From: Desulfosporosinus sp. Sb-LF
GTDB lineage: Bacteria; Bacillota; Desulfitobacteriia; Desulfitobacteriales; Desulfitobacteriaceae
Direction of reading: 5' to 3'
Assembly: GCF_004766055.1 (NCBI RefSeq)
Contig: NZ_SPQR01000006.1
Span: 248,001 to 312,000, forward strand
Length of the DNA: 64,000 nucleotides
Below, piece after piece: positions 1,758 through 44,660 of the stretch. A program made the translations under genes and the position numbers. The notes under the pieces are model-generated. The model saw only the letters and a list, made by a program, of their open reading frames with translations, was not told where the DNA came from and made no database searches. Numbering within the stretch: position 1 is the first letter of the stretch; each line of letters opens with the position of its first letter.

Positions 1758-3239
1758 ATGAAAAAGGTAATTCTATTTGTGATCGACTCACTTCATCCGG
1801 CAGTCTTGCGGAGGATCCTTTCGGAGGGGAATGCTCCGGCACTTGCCTTTCTAGCTAAACACGGAACCTATTTTGATCGCGTTGTCTCCTCTTTTCCAAC
1901 CATGACCCCAGTAGCCACGAGTTCTATGATCACGGGAACTTGGCCTGATCGGCACAGGGTTCCTGGATTTATCTGGTATAACGAAGAAATTCGAAAGATC
2001 GTGGATTATGGAGCGACGTTGCAAAGTATCTTGAAAATTGGTCCAAAGAAAATTCTTCGCAACTTATTAATAAAGCTCAATGAAGAGCATCTTAATCCGG
2101 AAACACCAACTTTATATGAAGAATTGGAGTCCAGAGGATATAGTACGGGAAACGTTAATTTCTTTATGTATCGGGCAACACACCCGCACCAAGCGAAAAT
2201 ACCTTTTTCGCTTTCTTTGGCGACGGGTTTTCGGCTTAAACAAGAAACGGTTTCAGGCCCTTCTCATTTAACCTTAGGTCAGCTCGTTCACCCTCCTTTC
2301 TCAGGTCGGTTAACGTCCTACCCAAGAGGAGTGTTTCACCGTTTCGGCTTCAACGATGCCTTCTCAGGGAAAATAGTCGCTCAGCTCATCCGTGAGGGGA
2401 AGCAACCGGATTTTACTGTCGTTTATTTTCCGGATAATGATAAATATTCACATTACTACGGTCCATTACGCACCGGTCCTTCTATTGAACGTGCAGACCA
2501 GCAGGTTGCTTCGGTGCTGGATGAGTTTGGTTCTTGGGAGAAGGCCCTTGAAGAAAATGTCATGATTGTCACGGGAGACCATTCTCAGTCGACGGTCGGT
2601 TTGAGCGAGGAATACTTAATTGATTTAGATCATGCCTTAAAGTCCTTCAAACGACTAAGGGCTACGGAAGAGGCTAGCGAGGACAATAACAAAGAGATTG
2701 CCATTTGTCCAAATGAACGCATGGCCTTTATTTACCTTCTTCAGAGGAAAAGCGAAATTTTGCCTGAAATCGTGAGTATTCTGGCTAAAGATCCACGCAA
2801 TGCCCAGATCGCCTGGAGAGTGTCCGAAAATAGATATTGCGTCATCCAAGGCGGTACGGAAAAGCGGCTTTTCTTTTCTCGCACAGGTGCCTATCAAGAC
2901 GTATACGGACAAAGTTGGTCGTTGGAAGGGGACTTGTCCGTGGTAGGTGCCCAGGTTACGAGAGAACAAATAATTGAATTTGAGAAGTATCCAGACGCGT
3001 TCAATCGCCTATTTTCTGCCCTTGAGGCGCGGAGCGGTAGCAGGGTCGTCGTTTCTGCAGCATCAGGGTATGAGTATTTAGCCGTAGGGGCACCGATTCA
3101 CCCAGGCGGGGGGAGCCACGGATCCCTTGAGGAAGAGGATTCGACAGTGCCAATGATCATTTCTGGTATGTCGGTTAGATTGGAGCACCCTAGAATTATT
3201 GATTTGTATCCAATGATTTTGGAGCATTTTGGGTTATAG
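1758..3239 (+). CDS. Alkaline-phosphatase-superfamily phosphodiesterase/nucleotide pyrophosphatase-like protein
   Basis: This 493-residue protein belongs to the type I phosphodiesterase/NPP branch of the alkaline phosphatase superfamily. The first metal ligand is Asp10 in VILFVIDS. The predicted nucleophile Thr50 lies in FPTMTPVATSSMITG, followed by the family WPDRHRVPG segment. The second set of metal ligands appears as FPDNDKYSHYYG (~residue 223), VTGDHSQS (~275) and HPGGGSHGS (~450). There is no clear signal peptide, so it is likely cytoplasmic. The substrate cannot be named from sequence; a nucleotide or phosphonate ester is possible. It is monocistronic, with its own promoter and a long palindromic repeat right after the stop codon. 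Confidence 0.85.
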   Translation: MKKVILFVIDSLHPAVLRRILSEGNAPALAFLAKHGTYFDRVVSSFPTMTPVATSSMITGTWPDRHRVPGFIWYNEEIRKIVDYGATLQSILKIGPKKILRNLLIKLNEEHLNPETPTLYEELESRGYSTGNVNFFMYRATHPHQAKIPFSLSLATGFRLKQETVSGPSHLTLGQLVHPPFSGRLTSYPRGVFHRFGFNDAFSGKIVAQLIREGKQPDFTVVYFPDNDKYSHYYGPLRTGPSIERADQQVASVLDEFGSWEKALEENVMIVTGDHSQSTVGLSEEYLIDLDHALKSFKRLRATEEASEDNNKEIAICPNERMAFIYLLQRKSEILPEIVSILAKDPRNAQIAWRVSENRYCVIQGGTEKRLFFSRTGAYQDVYGQSWSLEGDLSVVGAQVTREQIIEFEKYPDAFNRLFSALEARSGSRVVVSAASGYEYLAVGAPIHPGGGSHGSLEEEDSTVPMIISGMSVRLEHPRIIDLYPMILEHFGL

Positions 3240-3240
3240 G

Positions 3241-3422
3241 AGGGAGGAAGTTTCTTAGCCCGTTCGCACACGCTCCATTGCTATTCGCTTGATGCCGCGG
3301 CTAAAACGCAAAACCTCTAGGTCGTTCTGCATGTGAACCGTTGCGTTTCTTAACGCCTTAGCATCTGTGCTCATTGACGCAATTCCGCTAACGTGCTTCT
3401 CTAAGCTAAGAAACTTCCTCAG
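3241..3422. repeat. Long palindromic intergenic element, copy A
   Basis: The element begins two bases after a stop codon. Its ends are perfect 16-base inverted repeats (GAGGAAGTTTCTTAGC and its complement). The interior holds a second arm pair (AAACGCAA / TTGCGTTT around 3307-3350), and GTTCTGCATGTG near the apex recurs in the element at 37144-37378. The outer 15-16 bases recur at 44101-44118, and a diverged version bounds 16826-16937. There is no coding potential beyond shadow frames. It may be a mobile MITE/REP-like repeat or an mRNA 3'-end structure. Confidence 0.75.
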
Positions 3423-3458
3423 GACTCGACTTTTGGGATTTTTATTGGATACTGGAGT

Positions 3459-16423: not shown

Positions 16424-16825
16424 ATGTTACAATTATCGATTTTCCTGGAGAATGCAAAAGGGCGGTTGTCCGAGGTCATTAATCTACTCGCTGAACTTAA
16501 GGTGAATTTGCGGGCTCTATCGCTGGCGGATACCAAAGATTATGGGGTGTTGCGGATTATCGTGGATGAGCCTGAAGTAACAACGGAAAAATTACGGCAA
16601 CACAAAGTCGTTGTTTCCTTAACTCAGGTTTGGGTACTTAAGGTACCAGATCGCGCCGGAGGGCTGGCTGAGATGCTCAACGAACTTGTCAAAGAGGACG
16701 TTGTAGTGGAATATATTTATGCTTTTGTAGAAAAGGAAAATGAACAGGCCCAAGTTGTTCTCCGAGTACAAGATCAGGTGATTATGGAGAAGGCGATGCA
16801 GAAGATCAATTCGCTGATAAGGTAG
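16424..16825 (+). CDS. Tandem ACT domain protein
   Basis: A 133-residue protein made of two ACT domains: residues ~1-68 (LSIFLENAKGRLSEVINLLAE) and ~69-133 (LKVPDRAGGLAEMLNELVKE). ACT domains bind amino acids and act as allosteric sensors. GGGAGGGG lies before the ATG, 13 bases after the ligase stop, so the two form one operon. It probably senses an aromatic or branched amino acid, by analogy with other ligase-ACT pairs. A diverged palindromic repeat follows its stop codon. Confidence 0.85.
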   Translation: MLQLSIFLENAKGRLSEVINLLAELKVNLRALSLADTKDYGVLRIIVDEPEVTTEKLRQHKVVVSLTQVWVLKVPDRAGGLAEMLNELVKEDVVVEYIYAFVEKENEQAQVVLRVQDQVIMEKAMQKINSLIR

Positions 16826-16937
16826 GAGTCAGTTTCTCAGCCGTTTACATACGCGCTGCTTTGTTATCTTCTTGACGATGTTGCTAAAACCCATTAGAAG
16901 ACAACTAGAGTGCTCTCTACTGAGAAGCTTCCTCTAG
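16826..16937. repeat. Palindromic intergenic element, diverged copy B
   Basis: The element begins at the stop codon of the ACT gene. Its ends, TAGGAGTCAGTTTCTCAG and the complement of CTGAGAAGCTTCCTCTA, are imperfect inverted repeats resembling copy A at 3241-3422. An inner arm pair GTTATCTTC / GAAGACAAC is present. Confidence 0.6.
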
Positions 16938-19750: not shown

Positions 19751-19945
19751 CTCTTATCTGGAGTGGTGGAGGGACTGGCCCAATGAAACCCGGCAACCAG
19801 CCGTTAACTCTTGCGTTTTGATGCAAGGAAGCGGTATGGTGCTAATTCCTGCAGAAGACAGTTATAATGATTCTTCTGATAGATAAGAGGAGTGGCAAAT
19901 AATGGGCAAGCCTCTTCTCTTTTCAGAAGGGGCTTTTTGTTTCTT
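19751..19945 (+). ncRNA. SAM-I riboswitch (S-box) with terminator
   Basis: P1 is formed by CTCTTATC (19751-19758) and GATAAGAG (19882-19889). The core has GAGGGACTGGCCCAATGAAA, then CCCGGCAACC, and GGTGCTAATTCCTGCAGAA, all hallmarks of the S-box aptamer. A terminator follows: AAGCCTCTTCT (19908-19918) with AGAAGGGGCTT (19925-19935) and a T-run. The 3' strand of P1 (AAGAGG) can pair with CCTCTT of the terminator as an antiterminator, so SAM binding should stop transcription. The next clear gene is priA, followed by def and fmt, an unusual regulon for this riboswitch. Confidence 0.95.
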
Positions 19946-35364: not shown

Positions 35365-36027
35365 GTGAATAAGATCAAGAAGCTTGCCGTGTTGGCAAAT
35401 GGCGCATGGGATCACGACTGGGGAAAACGAATCCTCAAGGAAGTCGATTTCTTGATATGTGCGGATGGAGGGGCAAATTATGCTATTCTTTCTGGACGTA
35501 TGCCTAACCTTCTGGTCGGAGATTTGGATTCGATCTTACCGGAAAACTTGGTTCAATGTAAAACCGCGGGTTGTGTCATAGAACAATATCCCTGCGAGAA
35601 GGATGAGACAGATCTCGAATTGGCCCTTTCTCGGGCCGAGGAACAGGCCTTCCTCGCGGGTGAACAAGATATTTGGCTGTATGGGGCGACTGGAAAGCGA
35701 ATCGATCATTTCTTAGGTAATGTGGCCCTTATGCTCGGATATGCTCAAAAAGGGTACCGAGTCCGCTTAGTTGATCCCGATCATGAAATGTGGGTCCTTC
35801 GAGATTGCGAAAGGATAAGGGGATTGAAGGGACAAGAGCTCTCTTTGATCCCCTTATCAGAGAAAGCGGTTGTCACGACAGAGGGGCTGTATTATCCACT
35901 CCATCGGGGAGTACTTCCTCAGGCATCCCCGCGTGGCATAAGCAATGTATTTCTTGGAGAGGAAGCCGTGATCGAGGTTCACGAAGGATGGGTTTTGGTG
36001 GTTTTGCTGACGGGGGAGACGGTGTGA
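35365..36027 (+). CDS. thiN: Thiamine pyrophosphokinase
   Basis: ThiN converts thiamine to thiamine diphosphate with ATP. The 220-residue protein has the conserved ICADGGANYAI segment, VGDLDSI, a DETDLELAL metal-binding motif and GATGKRIDHFLGN. A C-terminal thiamine-binding beta domain follows. The start is GTG. It is the last gene in this tight run and is followed by a perfect hairpin at 36030-36083. Confidence 0.96.
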   Translation: MNKIKKLAVLANGAWDHDWGKRILKEVDFLICADGGANYAILSGRMPNLLVGDLDSILPENLVQCKTAGCVIEQYPCEKDETDLELALSRAEEQAFLAGEQDIWLYGATGKRIDHFLGNVALMLGYAQKGYRVRLVDPDHEMWVLRDCERIRGLKGQELSLIPLSEKAVVTTEGLYYPLHRGVLPQASPRGISNVFLGEEAVIEVHEGWVLVVLLTGETV

Positions 36028-36029
36028 AG

Positions 36030-36083
36030 AGCACGGCACAAGTTCACCTCAGGGTAATACCTGGTGTGAACTTGTGCCGTGCT
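36030..36083. repeat. Perfect 18-bp inverted repeat after thiN
   Basis: AGCACGGCACAAGTTCAC (36030-36047) and its exact complement (36066-36083) flank an 18-base loop that can pair further (CAGG/CCTG). There is no T-run. It begins three bases after the thiN stop and may act as an mRNA 3' stabiliser or belong to the adjacent repeat module. Confidence 0.7.
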
Positions 36084-36107
36084 AACGCCGAATAATTTAA
36101 GCAAGGT

Positions 36108-36252: not shown

Positions 36253-37137
36253 ATGCAACAGGATGAATTATGGATCGGCACAATGCTTGAGGGTAATGCT
36301 CGTTGGGTTTTGGTAAGGTCAACGGACACGGTAGAAGAGGCTCGCAAACGTCACGGGATGTCACCGGTTGCTACGGCAGCTTTGGGGCGCCTGATGACAG
36401 GAGATCTTATCTTGGCTAGTTCACTCAAGGGGGAAGAGAACATCACCTTGCGCTTACTGGGAGACGGTCCTTTAGAGGGGGTTGTAGCAGTAGGAAATGC
36501 GCAGGGAGAGGTTCGGGGTTATGTCAGGGAACCTTTGGTAGATTTACCGTTGAAAGCTTCTGGGAAACTTGATGTGGCTACAGCGGTTGGTTCTGGCGAG
36601 TTGGCAGTTAGCCGAAGTTTGCAAAATGGCGAAGTTTATACAGGGATGGTTCCGTTGGTTAGTGGCGAGATTGCCGAAGATCTCGTGCATTATTTGTTGA
36701 CCTCTGAACAGATTCCTTCCGCTATGCTTCTTGGGGTATTGGTCGAAAAGGATTATCATGTGGCTGGGGCGGCAGGTCTATTAATTCAACCGTTGCCTGG
36801 AGCGACTGAAGGGGATATCCAAGCGATTGAAAGTCTACTGGGGCAGATAAGGGTAGGTATCAGTGAACTGGCATCTCAGAGCCAAAGTATGGACGAATTG
36901 CTTGCTCATCTGATGGGACAACTCTCTTATCAAGTCCTTGAACGCCGGACTGTTAAATTTTTATGTACGTGTTCAAAAGCACGCTTGAGTGATACTTTGG
37001 TTTCACTGGGGAAAAAAGAAATAGCAGACCTGATCTCGGATGGGAAAGCCGAGATAGTTTGCCATTTTTGTAATGAACATTATTTGTTTAACGTGGAAGA
37101 GCTTCAGCAGATTTCGGAGCAGGCAGGAATGGTGTGA
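36253..37137 (+). CDS. hslO: Hsp33 redox-regulated chaperone
   Basis: Hsp33 is a holdase activated when its zinc-bound cysteines are oxidised. The 294-residue protein has the N-terminal Hsp33 fold with NGEVYTGMVPLVSGEIAEDLVHYL. The C-terminal redox switch has CxC (FLCTCS, ~residue 238) and CxxC (VCHFCNEHY, ~273). ATG follows GGAAGAG. It is flanked on both sides by palindromic repeat sequence, which sets it apart from its neighbours. Confidence 0.96.
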   Translation: MQQDELWIGTMLEGNARWVLVRSTDTVEEARKRHGMSPVATAALGRLMTGDLILASSLKGEENITLRLLGDGPLEGVVAVGNAQGEVRGYVREPLVDLPLKASGKLDVATAVGSGELAVSRSLQNGEVYTGMVPLVSGEIAEDLVHYLLTSEQIPSAMLLGVLVEKDYHVAGAAGLLIQPLPGATEGDIQAIESLLGQIRVGISELASQSQSMDELLAHLMGQLSYQVLERRTVKFLCTCSKARLSDTLVSLGKKEIADLISDGKAEIVCHFCNEHYLFNVEELQQISEQAGMV

Positions 37138-37143
37138 AATTAG

Positions 37144-37378
37144 GGATGGAGTGAAATTGCTCCGCTCACCACAGCGCCGTCGCTATCTCGCTTAATTACG
37201 AGGCGAGCGTGGCAAACCCCTGGGTTGTTCTGCATGTGTGTCGCTCATTGCCATCCTTGGCACCGTGACATCAGTCCATCCATGGACAAGTCCCGCTGCC
37301 ACGCTTTGCGCCTCGTAATCTAAGCGCGATTGACGCGACTCTGCTGAATGGTTCGGCTTTGCAAATTAACTCCATCCG
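37144..37378. repeat. Long palindromic intergenic element, copy E (~235 bases)
   Basis: Outer arms GGATGGAGTGAAATTGC and GCAAATTAACTCCATCC are nearly complementary. Inner arms CGCTTAATTACGAGGCGAGC and the complement of GCGCCTCGTAATCTAAGCG pair over ~25 bases, continued by GCGTGGCA / TGCCACGC. GTTCTGCATGTG in the upper part is shared with copy A at 3241-3422. The right arm is shared with 36108-36175. It holds no credible gene. Confidence 0.75.
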
Positions 37379-37442
37379 GGCTGGGAACGACGAGGGTACC
37401 ACGAGAGCAAGGAACGGATTGGCTGAGAATATGAGGAAAATG

Positions 37443-40713: not shown

Positions 40714-41577
40714 ATGCGCGCCTACGAAGATTGGGTAATTAAAGCTGAAACAAAAGGATTGAAAATCAGTGAAGTGATACTCCAAAATCAGATGGAAGAA
40801 TTAGAACAATCGGAGCAAGCGCTTTTTCAACGTATGAATAAAAATTTAAACGTGATGCGAAAATCGGTTGAAGTGGGTCTCAGTGGAGAGCGTCGTTCAT
40901 TGTCTGGTCTGGTAGGGGGAGACGCAGCAAAAGTTGAGAGTCACCGAAAAAAAGGTGAAAGCCTCATTGGAGAGCAAATGAGCGGTGCGATTGCTAAGGC
41001 GCTTGCTGTGGTGGAAGTGAATGCTTGTATGGGCAAAATTGTTGCTGCACCGACCGCGGGTTCCTGCGGGGTACTTCCGGCTGTTCTTTTGACGGTTGAG
41101 GAGTCGCTTCAAGTTTCTGAGCAAGAGATTTTACTTGCCCTTTTTACGGCGGCGGGATTAGGAATGATATTTGCGGACCGCGCAAGCGTTTCTGGCGCTG
41201 AGGGCGGATGTCAGGCAGAAATAGGGTCTGCTGCCGCGATGGCGGCAGCAGCGGCAGTGGAATTAGCAGGAGGATCGCCAAGACAGACGGCGGACGCTGC
41301 AGCGATCGCTATGAAATCAATGCTTGGTTTAGTATGTGATCCGGTGGCAGGACTTGTAGAGGTTCCTTGTGTCAAGCGAAATGCAATAGGAGCGACGATT
41401 GCATTGTCGGCAGCTGAAATGGCCCTTTCGGGTGTCAAGAGCGCGATTCCGATTGATGAGGTTATCGATACTATGGCTCAGATTGGTAAACAAATGTCGT
41501 GTGCTTTAAAAGAGACAGCTCAAGGCGGCCTTGCTGTGACGCCGACAGGACGACGCATCCAGGCGGATTTTCTATGA
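40714..41577 (+). CDS. sdaAA: L-serine dehydratase, iron-sulfur type, alpha subunit
   Basis: The catalytic subunit of the 4Fe-4S serine dehydratase. The 287-residue protein includes APTAGSCGVLPAVLL, the SGAEGGCQAEIGSAAAMAAA region and CDPVAGLVEVPCVKRN, whose cysteines bind the cluster. It overlaps recG by four bases (ATGA). Confidence 0.96.
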   Translation: MRAYEDWVIKAETKGLKISEVILQNQMEELEQSEQALFQRMNKNLNVMRKSVEVGLSGERRSLSGLVGGDAAKVESHRKKGESLIGEQMSGAIAKALAVVEVNACMGKIVAAPTAGSCGVLPAVLLTVEESLQVSEQEILLALFTAAGLGMIFADRASVSGAEGGCQAEIGSAAAMAAAAAVELAGGSPRQTADAAAIAMKSMLGLVCDPVAGLVEVPCVKRNAIGATIALSAAEMALSGVKSAIPIDEVIDTMAQIGKQMSCALKETAQGGLAVTPTGRRIQADFL

Positions 41578-44099
41578 AACTTACACAGGTGCAACTTGTC
41601 TTAAATAATTTCCAACGGGCACTCTTAGCAGAAGAAAAACAGGGTTTTATAAATACTGGGGCGTTAGGTGGTTTTAATGCTTTTCTGCGTGGAATTCTTC
41701 CACGGCTAGAGCAACTTTTCCCCCTGCATGACATGAACTTGTTGAGGGATTTGGCGAAGCAATATCCTACCTGGAGCCCACTTCGCCGTAGGGAAGCCTT
41801 CTCAGAACTTCACCGCTTTATGCAAGAAGTTATGCTGGAAGCTCAAGATATCTCACCTCAGGATGTGCCATTAAGGGAGGATTCAAAACGCCTAGAACAA
41901 GAAGCGCTTCCGAGTCAAATGGTGCCAGAAGAGCAGGAAATGCAGGGGGAACAAAGAAGATCAGTAAACAAAGTAGACGCTAAAACTATTGAAGCATACG
42001 GCGAAAACAGTGAAAACAGTGGAGCTCATGAAACCCCCAAACTACATAAGGCACGACCTACACAAGAAATAAAACAACAAAAAACGGGGTCCTTACAATA
42101 TCTTAAAGGGGTTGGCCCAGAAAGAGCCAAGCAACTTGAAAAGCTAGGGATTCACAATGAGCAAGATTTATTCACCTACTTTCCGCGTCGGTACGAAGAT
42201 CGCCGCCAGAGGACCATTGAAGAGTTGAAGGATGGTGAAATGGCAACGATTAGCGGAGAAGTAGTTGCAGGACATGTTACGAATGGCAAGATGAAGGTAG
42301 TCAAGTTGAGTATTGAGCAACAGGGGCGCTTGTTTCACGCAACTTGGTTTAACCAAACATTTATTCTCAAGCAATATCCCGTGGGAACGCAAGTCGTTGT
42401 GACGGGGAAAGTTCGCTGGCAACAACGGGTGCCTGAGGTTCTTGTTTCAGACATTGAAAAGGCTAGTACAAGTAGCTCGGTGAATGCTCTTAACCAGGGT
42501 TCACAAATGATTCTTCCAGTTTATTCCGAAACAGCACGTTTATCTTCGAAAGTAATACGCGGCGTAATCCAGGGTGTTCTAGGTCGGGTTGAAGAATATT
42601 TTCAAGAGATTATCCCGCAAGAAGACTTACGGGGGTGGATGGGGCGACCTCAAGCTTATCGGGAAATTCATTTTCCAAACAATTATGAGAGTTTGGAACA
42701 AGCAAGGGATCGGCTGGTGTGGGAGGAGGTTCTCTTTTTGCAATTAGCCGTCGCTGGATTACGTCAGGGAATAGTGCGGCTCGGAAGCCCTCTACTTTTA
42801 GGAGGGGAAGAACTGCTCCAAGGCTTTTATAAGGCACTGCCTTTTCAATTGACTAAAGCTCAACAACGAGTGATTCAAGAGATAGCTCACGATCTAGCTA
42901 AACCGCAGGGAATGGCTCGATTGGTCCAAGGGGATGTGGGATCCGGTAAAACGGCGGTTGCTATGGCTGCTCTGCTACGCGCGGTAGGATCAGGGTACCA
43001 AGGGGCAATGATGGCCCCTACGGAAATTTTGGCTGTACAACATTTCCAGTCGCTTGAGAAAGTGTTCACCCCCTTGGGTATAACAATTGTTTGTTTACTG
43101 GGTAGTCAGAGCAAAGGCGTTCGGGAGAGTGCATTGGCGATGATTGCGGATGGACGAGCACAAATCATCGTGGGAACCCATGCTCTTATTCAAGAATCGG
43201 TGGTTTATAAAGCGCTAGGTTTGGCTGTGACAGACGAACAACACCGTTTTGGGGTTCGGCAGCGTTCCTTGCTTCAGAGCAAAGGCGAAAGTCCTCACGT
43301 TTTGGTTCTCACCGCGACTCCGATTCCACGGACGTTAGCGCTGACGCTCTACGGTGACTTGCAGCTCTCTGTCCTTGATGAGATGCCAGTAGGGCGAAAA
43401 CCGATTATTACCCGCAAATTGACGGAACGTTCCCGACCAAAGTTGGAGAAATTTATCGACGAGCAAATCAATCTTGGAATGCAAATTTACGTTGTATGCC
43501 CTTTAGTAGAAGAATCAGAAACGCTGGATCTGATTTCAGCAACGCAACGTGCTACAGATCTTCAAGTGAGGTTTCCTGAGCGTCGTGTCGCCCTCATACA
43601 CGGAAGAATGAAGGGTGCGGAAAAGGAATCCATCATGACAGCGTTTCATATAGGGAAAATTGATATTTTAGTCGCCACGACTGTTGTGGAAGTTGGAGTA
43701 AATGTCCCGAAAGCCTCGGTGATGGTGATCGAATCAGCAGAACGATTTGGCCTGGCGCAATTGCATCAACTTAGAGGACGAGTTGGTCGGGGGAGTGAAC
43801 AATCTTACTGTTTCTTGTTGTCTGACAAAGACAGTCGTCGTTTAGATATTCTTTGCCAAACGGAAGATGGGTTTAAAATTGCCGAGGAAGATATGCGTCT
43901 GCGTGGAACGGGAGAACTATTAGGAACCAGGCAACACGGTCTAGCAGAATTGCACCTGACGGATCTCTCCCATGATGGACAGCTTGTCGAGAAAGCGTAT
44001 CAGATGGCACAGAAAGCTTTACAGAATCCAGATAGATATGCGTTGCTTTTCCAAGAGGTGCAGAGAATGTTTCCACCGGAGAAAATCGGGGTGCATTAG
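41574..44099 (+). CDS. recG: ATP-dependent DNA helicase RecG with N-terminal extension
   Basis: RecG remodels stalled forks and branched DNA. The 841-residue product is longer than the ~690 residues usual in Bacillus. Canonical RecG begins near residue 170 (QYLKGVGPERAKQLEKLGI). Before it are a helical domain (~residues 1-95) and a polar linker rich in Glu, Gln and Lys. The wedge/OB domain follows, then Walker A GDVGSGKT (~454), the DEQH box, TATPIPRTLALTLYGDLQ and QLRGRVGRG. The frame opens at 41499, but ATG 41574 overlapping the sdaAA stop fits. A half-repeat follows the stop. Confidence 0.95.
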   Translation: MKLTQVQLVLNNFQRALLAEEKQGFINTGALGGFNAFLRGILPRLEQLFPLHDMNLLRDLAKQYPTWSPLRRREAFSELHRFMQEVMLEAQDISPQDVPLREDSKRLEQEALPSQMVPEEQEMQGEQRRSVNKVDAKTIEAYGENSENSGAHETPKLHKARPTQEIKQQKTGSLQYLKGVGPERAKQLEKLGIHNEQDLFTYFPRRYEDRRQRTIEELKDGEMATISGEVVAGHVTNGKMKVVKLSIEQQGRLFHATWFNQTFILKQYPVGTQVVVTGKVRWQQRVPEVLVSDIEKASTSSSVNALNQGSQMILPVYSETARLSSKVIRGVIQGVLGRVEEYFQEIIPQEDLRGWMGRPQAYREIHFPNNYESLEQARDRLVWEEVLFLQLAVAGLRQGIVRLGSPLLLGGEELLQGFYKALPFQLTKAQQRVIQEIAHDLAKPQGMARLVQGDVGSGKTAVAMAALLRAVGSGYQGAMMAPTEILAVQHFQSLEKVFTPLGITIVCLLGSQSKGVRESALAMIADGRAQIIVGTHALIQESVVYKALGLAVTDEQHRFGVRQRSLLQSKGESPHVLVLTATPIPRTLALTLYGDLQLSVLDEMPVGRKPIITRKLTERSRPKLEKFIDEQINLGMQIYVVCPLVEESETLDLISATQRATDLQVRFPERRVALIHGRMKGAEKESIMTAFHIGKIDILVATTVVEVGVNVPKASVMVIESAERFGLAQLHQLRGRVGRGSEQSYCFLLSDKDSRRLDILCQTEDGFKIAEEDMRLRGTGELLGTRQHGLAELHLTDLSHDGQLVEKAYQMAQKALQNPDRYALLFQEVQRMFPPEKIGVH

Positions 44100-44100
44100 G

Positions 44101-44118
44101 GGAGGAAGTTTCTTAGTC
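44101..44118 (+). repeat. Half copy of the palindromic element end
   Basis: GGAGGAAGTTTCTTAG repeats the left end of copy A (3242-3257) exactly, at the same position right after a stop codon. The complementary right arm is not found downstream. Confidence 0.65.
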
Positions 44119-44462: not shown

Positions 44463-44660
44463 CATCACAGGGCCCCTTGCGCTCTCTTCGACGTTTCTTA
44501 GCTCGTCCTCGTAGTATCCCAGCCGATGTTCCTACCTAACCGTAACTAATTCCGTCGTAACCAAGCCACGGCGCAGCCAAACCAAAGAATAAAATGAAAT
44601 TGCAAAAGGAACCGTTTAAGCCAACACTAAAAAAATGCTTCTTCATTCCGTCCCAAGCAT
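44463..44660. other. Non-coding stretch downstream of gpr
   Basis: No gene is seen. A short CGTTTCTTAGCTCG segment recalls the palindromic element ends but is too short to call. Confidence 0.4.

Follow-up and report, generated by a model that had tools for sequence, protein, structure and literature searches.

Desulfosporosinus sp. Sb-LF carries, 4 nt behind a gene that ends in TAG, a palindromic repeat element that we call family A. It lies in a 64,000-nt stretch of contig NZ_SPQR01000006.1 (positions 248,001 to 312,000), hereafter the window, to which all coordinates refer. The ends of the window copy form a perfect 16-nt inverted repeat around a spacer of 145 nt, which confirms the terminal repeats reported in a preliminary description of the window, and the apical sequence GTTCTGCATGTG occupies positions 3324-3335. 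Family A copies are about 180 nt long, or about 230-350 nt where they contain inserts. Here, we show that the element is a member of a genus-wide superfamily of repeats, which is real, covaries and is strongly biased towards stop codons.

By BLAST, the genome of the window (G000; 30 contigs, 4.27 Mb, 99.99% complete) has 50 hits to the element, some whole and others partial, and a covariance model gives 39 at E <=0.01. BLAST matches are present in 24 of the 29 Desulfosporosinus genomes, G000 counted, and a 23-base element pattern occurs in 56 stretches of the genome collection, all on Desulfosporosinus contigs except 3 from Bacillota bacterium bin54. No match to the element was found in plasmid and phage records, and no published account of these Desulfosporosinus repeats was found in open-licence PubMed Central text. 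The copies in G000 cluster on two contigs, C6 (337 kb) and C9 (228 kb), and on each of them most share an orientation; the largest contigs have few. The genome-wide copies, together with the covariation described below, exclude the possibility that only the copies first noticed in the window exist and that nothing supports their stem.

Covariation and interchangeable stems

The fetched loci yielded 72 distinct long copies, of which 51 were aligned after those with large inserts or replaced left arms had been dropped (leaving 53, then 51). A hand-written structure leaves 93.2% of cells paired across these copies, falling to 27-46% when it is slid by 1-3 columns. The paired percentage is favoured because the structure was derived from the same sequences; the evidence lies instead in double changes. 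Double-sided changes were found in 22 of 41 pairs, compared with 10.1 in shuffles (standard deviation 1.6), and 120 cells were doubly changed, compared with 30.3, so that the predicted stem is backed by covariation. RNAalifold, applied to the same alignment, gives 34 pairs, double changes being present in 16. This covariation fits RNA and DNA hairpins alike and does not discriminate between them. Covariation, and not fold energy, makes the case for structure. As RNA, 3225-3440 taken by itself has an ordinary fold (z -0.88), and as DNA 3244-3420 has a z of -3.57. The window copy, itself one of the 51 in the model, scores 203.5 bits over 3243-3423.

Trained on the 51 family A copies, the model also matches elements with quite different stems in three genomes (G007, G011 and G028). 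Such matches number 58 in 40 fetched regions; 49 were read letter by letter and 44 were grouped into subfamilies C, D, E and F, in which the stems are entirely different and still complementary, while the architecture and the apical motif are the same. The motif, AACCTCtGGG..CTGCATGTGAACC (<=2 and <=3 mismatches in its two parts), occurs in 49 of the 51 copies of family A, in 47 of the 58 matches with other stems and in 0 of 2180 shuffled copies. The earlier claim of a conserved apical motif holds except for the motif's first G, which is absent from many other copies. In 35 control loci, 104 kb in all, nothing matched the model even at E 1. Across the order, candidate matches at E 0.001, counted by score alone, occur in 55 of 73 genomes, which represent 17 of 22 genera, and 17 out-of-genus loci fetched for another purpose gave one stem-only match of 13.1 bits.

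Further parts are added in a modular manner. Some copies contain an additional hairpin domain on their left side, which can be repeated and nested, or an apical insert. Many copies continue rightward with TGGGCTTGGGTCGACGGGG and a second small hairpin. The same tail is also attached to another body, that of family B, in the copy behind recG of G016. A scan of the genome with a tail-hairpin pattern hit only 6 places. Copies of D and E form facing pairs about 340 bp apart in several genomes (L221-L226, L235, L253, L256, L257), and the G+C content of the D subfamily is 65%.

Placement behind stop codons and at orthologous loci

With ORFs (open reading frames) scored by codon usage taken as genes, 47 of the 72 long copies have a co-directional gene on their left. 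In 22 of these 47 the element starts 0-9 nt past the stop of that gene; one copy overlaps the gene by 2 nt and three supply their own TAG as its stop. Uniform placement in downstream intergenic DNA predicts 3.8%, an expectation that is biased low because these intergenic regions hold repeats. A second repeat with GGGGACGGTTCTTG adjoins many copies (L248, L034, L090 and others), so that the intergenic regions are mosaics. The internal control comprised 24 copies with a left gene directed away from them and 24 right neighbours facing the element: none of the former starts <=9 nt from that gene, and none of the latter ends <=9 nt from the right end of the element. The stop codons themselves are skewed, with TAG in 22 of the 27 copies that start -20 to 12 nt from a stop. 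Leaving out the 4 copies with the stop inside the element end, stops that are not element-supplied are TAG in 18 of 23 cases, compared with 86 of 264 background genes (33%; p 9e-6), and in 12 of 16 (p 0.0006) when orthologous hosts are collapsed by hand and one mixed group is omitted. The linker from TAG to stem varies from 0 to 8 nt, and the bases that precede the stem differ between copies. Left ends are strongly over-represented immediately after stop codons, most of which are TAG. The preliminary description had anticipated this bias but drew it too tightly, placing all window copies within two bases of a stop; the actual distances from stop to the GAGG/GAGT end are 4, 0 and 2 nt. Stop adjacency is seen in part of the F subfamily (0, 6 and 16 nt and one overlap among 6 copies) and is not evident in D and E.

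Occupancy of orthologous sites is patchy. Behind the gene at the window copy, an element is present in 3 of 28 orthologous genus loci (G000 and G027, with a remnant in G020), and the TAG stop of this gene is common to many relatives without the element. Behind recG, in 29 loci of which one was too short to read, we found a family A fragment in G000, a family A copy in G024, family B in G016, G020 and G027, part of B in G003, and none of these in the others. Truncation of genes by insertion was considered and rejected for two hosts, in which TAG is shared with relatives that lack the element. Copies in two or three species were found in 12 orthologous host groups, giving 16 pairs, and only 2 of these 16 are mutual best matches, with hosts of about 95% and about 99% protein identity. 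Either the same sites have been hit repeatedly or copies have been homogenised within genomes.

Other copies and neighbours in the window

The 16-base end has 7 matches in the window with <=3 mismatches, compared with 0.61 expected, and none of 100 shuffles reaches 7. All three copies listed in the preliminary description are real (Table 1): the diverged copy was scored with the model from 51 copies, that copy excluded, and the half copy behind recG corresponds in place to a full family A copy in the relative G024 (locus L146). The list missed a fourth, an F-type copy that starts 6 nt past a TGA at 37135-37137 and directly after an in-frame TAG at 37141-37143.

Table 1. Family A and related features in the window
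Feature	Position	Strand	Basis or remark
TAG stop of ORF 1758-3239	3237..3239	+	4 nt before stem
Family A body	3244..3420	+	inverted repeat, covariance-model match, counted pairs
Outer stem, window copy	3244-3259 with 3405-3420	+	16/16 paired
Inner stems, window copy	3277-3281 with 3379-3383; 3291-3301 with 3355-3365; 3304-3310 with 3342-3348	+	converted from alignment columns
Apical motif AACCTCtrGGt..TTCTGCATGTGAACC	3312..3339	+	sequence reading
Degenerate remnant of common tail (consensus TGGGCTTGGGTCGACGGGG)	3421..3437	+	by-eye comparison with other copies
Diverged, internally deleted family A copy	16825..16937	+	directly after TAG 16823-16825; 31.2 bits, E 9.6e-6
F-type copy, different stem, apical insert of about 54 nt	37144..37379	+	77.6 bits; sequence; RNA fold z -9.0
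Tail of F-type copy (gctgggaacgacgaggg)	37380..37396	+	by eye
Family A left-end fragment	44102..44117	+	1 mismatch; 2 nt past recG TAG stop

A near-perfect 16-bp hairpin at 36031-36084, directly after ORF 35365-36027, gives a stem-only model match of 11.6 bits and is probably an ordinary terminator. The stretch at 44540-44640 (CGTCGTAACCAAGCCA..), near the recG fragment, recurs beside other copies (loci L057 and L045) and is probably another dispersed repeat. The recG frame (41499-44099, 866 aa) overlaps the preceding ORF, and 24 of 28 orthologues with a match have an in-frame stop in the aligned stretch or lack its start, so that the real start of recG probably lies further in. A SAM (S-adenosylmethionine) riboswitch, RF00162, lies at 19751-19889 (82.7 bits), and its family served as our RNA control.

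Mobility, strand and competing explanations

On balance, and with somewhat better than even confidence, we regard the superfamily as non-autonomous modular hairpin repeats, probably mobile, that prefer stop codons and have spread in Desulfosporosinus. The many dispersed copies, the patchy occupancy and the scarcity of mutual best matches at orthologous sites argue for this, as do the stop adjacency, the TAG excess, the covariation, the tail shared by A and B, and end fragments that look nested. Left-end fragments of 9-40 nt precede full copies of family A and of the family resembling RF01731, often differing from them in sequence, and right-end remnants follow some copies, which suggests nested insertion near the left end. 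Mobility is likely. Copies would arise by insertion, and insertion may favour the position immediately downstream of a stop codon or survive best there; an inserted copy would then become part of the 3' untranslated region of the mRNA of the upstream gene.

Several observations weigh against this account. The searches for a Y1 transposase in G000 and for long end-bounded elements produced no transposase candidate, other enzymes not having been searched for. Target-site duplication is absent in 69 copies (mean longest match 6.32, compared with 6.30 in controls), in a test that would miss a 2-bp duplication. We saw no clean empty site that retained both flanks, and copies at shared sites could equally be explained by old sites homogenised within genomes. 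In addition, 25 of the 47 co-directional copies start outside the 0-9 nt interval, among them copies whose left arm has been replaced or that are preceded by a second left end, and a plain DNA element does not predict the consistent minus-strand folding bias described below.

Known mobile palindromes offer partial parallels. REPs (repetitive extragenic palindromes) and BIMEs (bacterial interspersed mosaic elements) that go with RAYTs (REP-associated tyrosine transposases) are likewise palindromes near stop codons, and those of the GTAG type often supply TAG stops (PMC3733652). The preliminary description had proposed this kinship, and a Y1 domain (PF01797) is present in 24 of 29 genus genomes. 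Even so, we consider it extremely unlikely that a RAYT or other Y1 transposase moves these elements. REP units measure 20-40 bp, against about 180 nt here; there is no fixed GTAG/CGTC tetranucleotide, the bases before the stem being variable; and Y1 matches do not track copy number, with none in G000, G023 and G024, which all bear copies, and some in G001, G018 and G025, which all lack a BLAST copy. A MITE (miniature inverted-repeat transposable element) of a TA-targeting DDE transposon, with G as its first base, would always yield TAG when inserted at the TA of a stop. It would account for the TAG excess and for the terminal inverted repeats (the window copy forms all 16 of its outer pairs, and this helix is 92.9% paired across the 51 copies), yet two host genes already have TAG in element-free relatives, the linker is of variable length and several left ends lack TA, which makes this explanation very unlikely. 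Other bacterial MITEs (ERIC, NEMIS, RUP) are also non-coding and multicopy with inverted ends; family A differs in that no duplication was found, nor any parent transposon in G000, and in that its inner structure covaries in detail. By description, family A also resembles YPAL/RU-2 of Yersinia, which is reported to be a dispersed palindromic repeat of about 168 nt, co-transcribed with upstream genes and making duplications of 3-26 bp (PMC2229807). That element belongs to another phylum, and no duplications were found for family A. The 29 end matches in G000, the one genome scanned in this way, form facing pairs about 180-350 bp apart only, in a list read by eye, and no long element bounded by 15-base ends was seen there. 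Target-primed reverse transcription might show as a polarity in truncation, but this was unsupported: solitary left ends and solitary right ends each number 13, counted by an automatic criterion blind to partners that have mutated. An integron attC reading was also considered; no GTTRRRY-like ends were seen.

The main rival is a structured RNA of the TwoAYGGAY (RF01731) kind, made from the minus strand and antisense to the last part of the upstream gene; the copies would be dispersed genes for small RNAs or would act as sponges for an RNA-binding protein. The minus strand gives the more stable RNA in 91 of 95 copies from five subfamilies and dinucleotide-shuffle z favours it in 57 of 69, a set that samples 25 of the 51 family A copies, although these counts are not independent because the copies are related. 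In 25 SAM riboswitches of the same genus the known strand is the more stable in all 25 and wins by z in 23, the other strand in 2. Family A has 5 G-U among 1947 paired cells, compared with 44 of 667 in SAM riboswitches, and 23 A-C mismatches, which would be G-U on the minus strand. This G-U scarcity would fit a DNA-only palindrome, a reading weakened by the RNAalifold structure of family A (62 G-U of 1664) and by subfamily C (61 of 719). Sister elements also match RF01731 on the minus strand: family B scores 44.0 (at L153) and 42.6 bits around the cut-off of 43. The F-type window copy scores 18.1 bits, under that cut-off, and the family A window copy has no match in Rfam up to E 10, hence none at the RF01731 cut-off. 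Only two weak promoter-like minus-strand sites lie right of the window copy, at about shuffle level, and the patchy occupancy and left-end fragments resemble mobility. Taken together, we judge the minus-strand reading unlikely. An mRNA 3'-end hairpin under selection, in which the terminating ribosome would cover the stem base and so link translation to the decay of the mRNA or to how the gene that follows is read, would agree with the stop adjacency, with the compensatory changes and with the finding that several species carry copies at the ends of the same genes. It is quite improbable given that the element is absent from most orthologous loci, that 24 of the 72 copies stand behind no co-directional gene, and that the plus strand is the less stable RNA.

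RF01731 itself matches 36 of the 73 genomes of the order. In the original paper TwoAYGGAY is described as probably RNA and not cis-regulatory, with no role given (PMC2864571). We examined 51 of its contexts, one locus at a contig edge excluded. Like family A, it often lies behind a co-directional left gene (36 of 51, with the Rfam strand taken as minus), the match starting <=70 nt past the stop in 31 (TAG 15, TGA 11, TAA 5) and the stem, placed by a stem finder, <=9 nt from the stop in 16 of 36. Several of the TGA stops are element-supplied, and stop adjacency is unclear beyond Desulfosporosinus. Family B joins an RF01731 match to the family A tail and to a stop-adjacent position. As a speculative and rather improbable extension, the whole may form a bacterial counterpart of SINEs (short interspersed nuclear elements), structured and non-coding with interchangeable bodies and one tail, copied by a host or foreign enzyme to the point behind TAG, with TwoAYGGAY as a branch.

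Dispersed bacterial repeats near gene ends are already known. In the repeats of Desulfosporosinus, fold and apical motif are kept while stems are replaced, one tail is shared by different bodies, and the element starts at the stop codon itself, which poses a sharp question of how the target is chosen. RF01731, an Rfam motif with no assigned role, gains a genomic context as a member of dispersed repeats behind stop codons.
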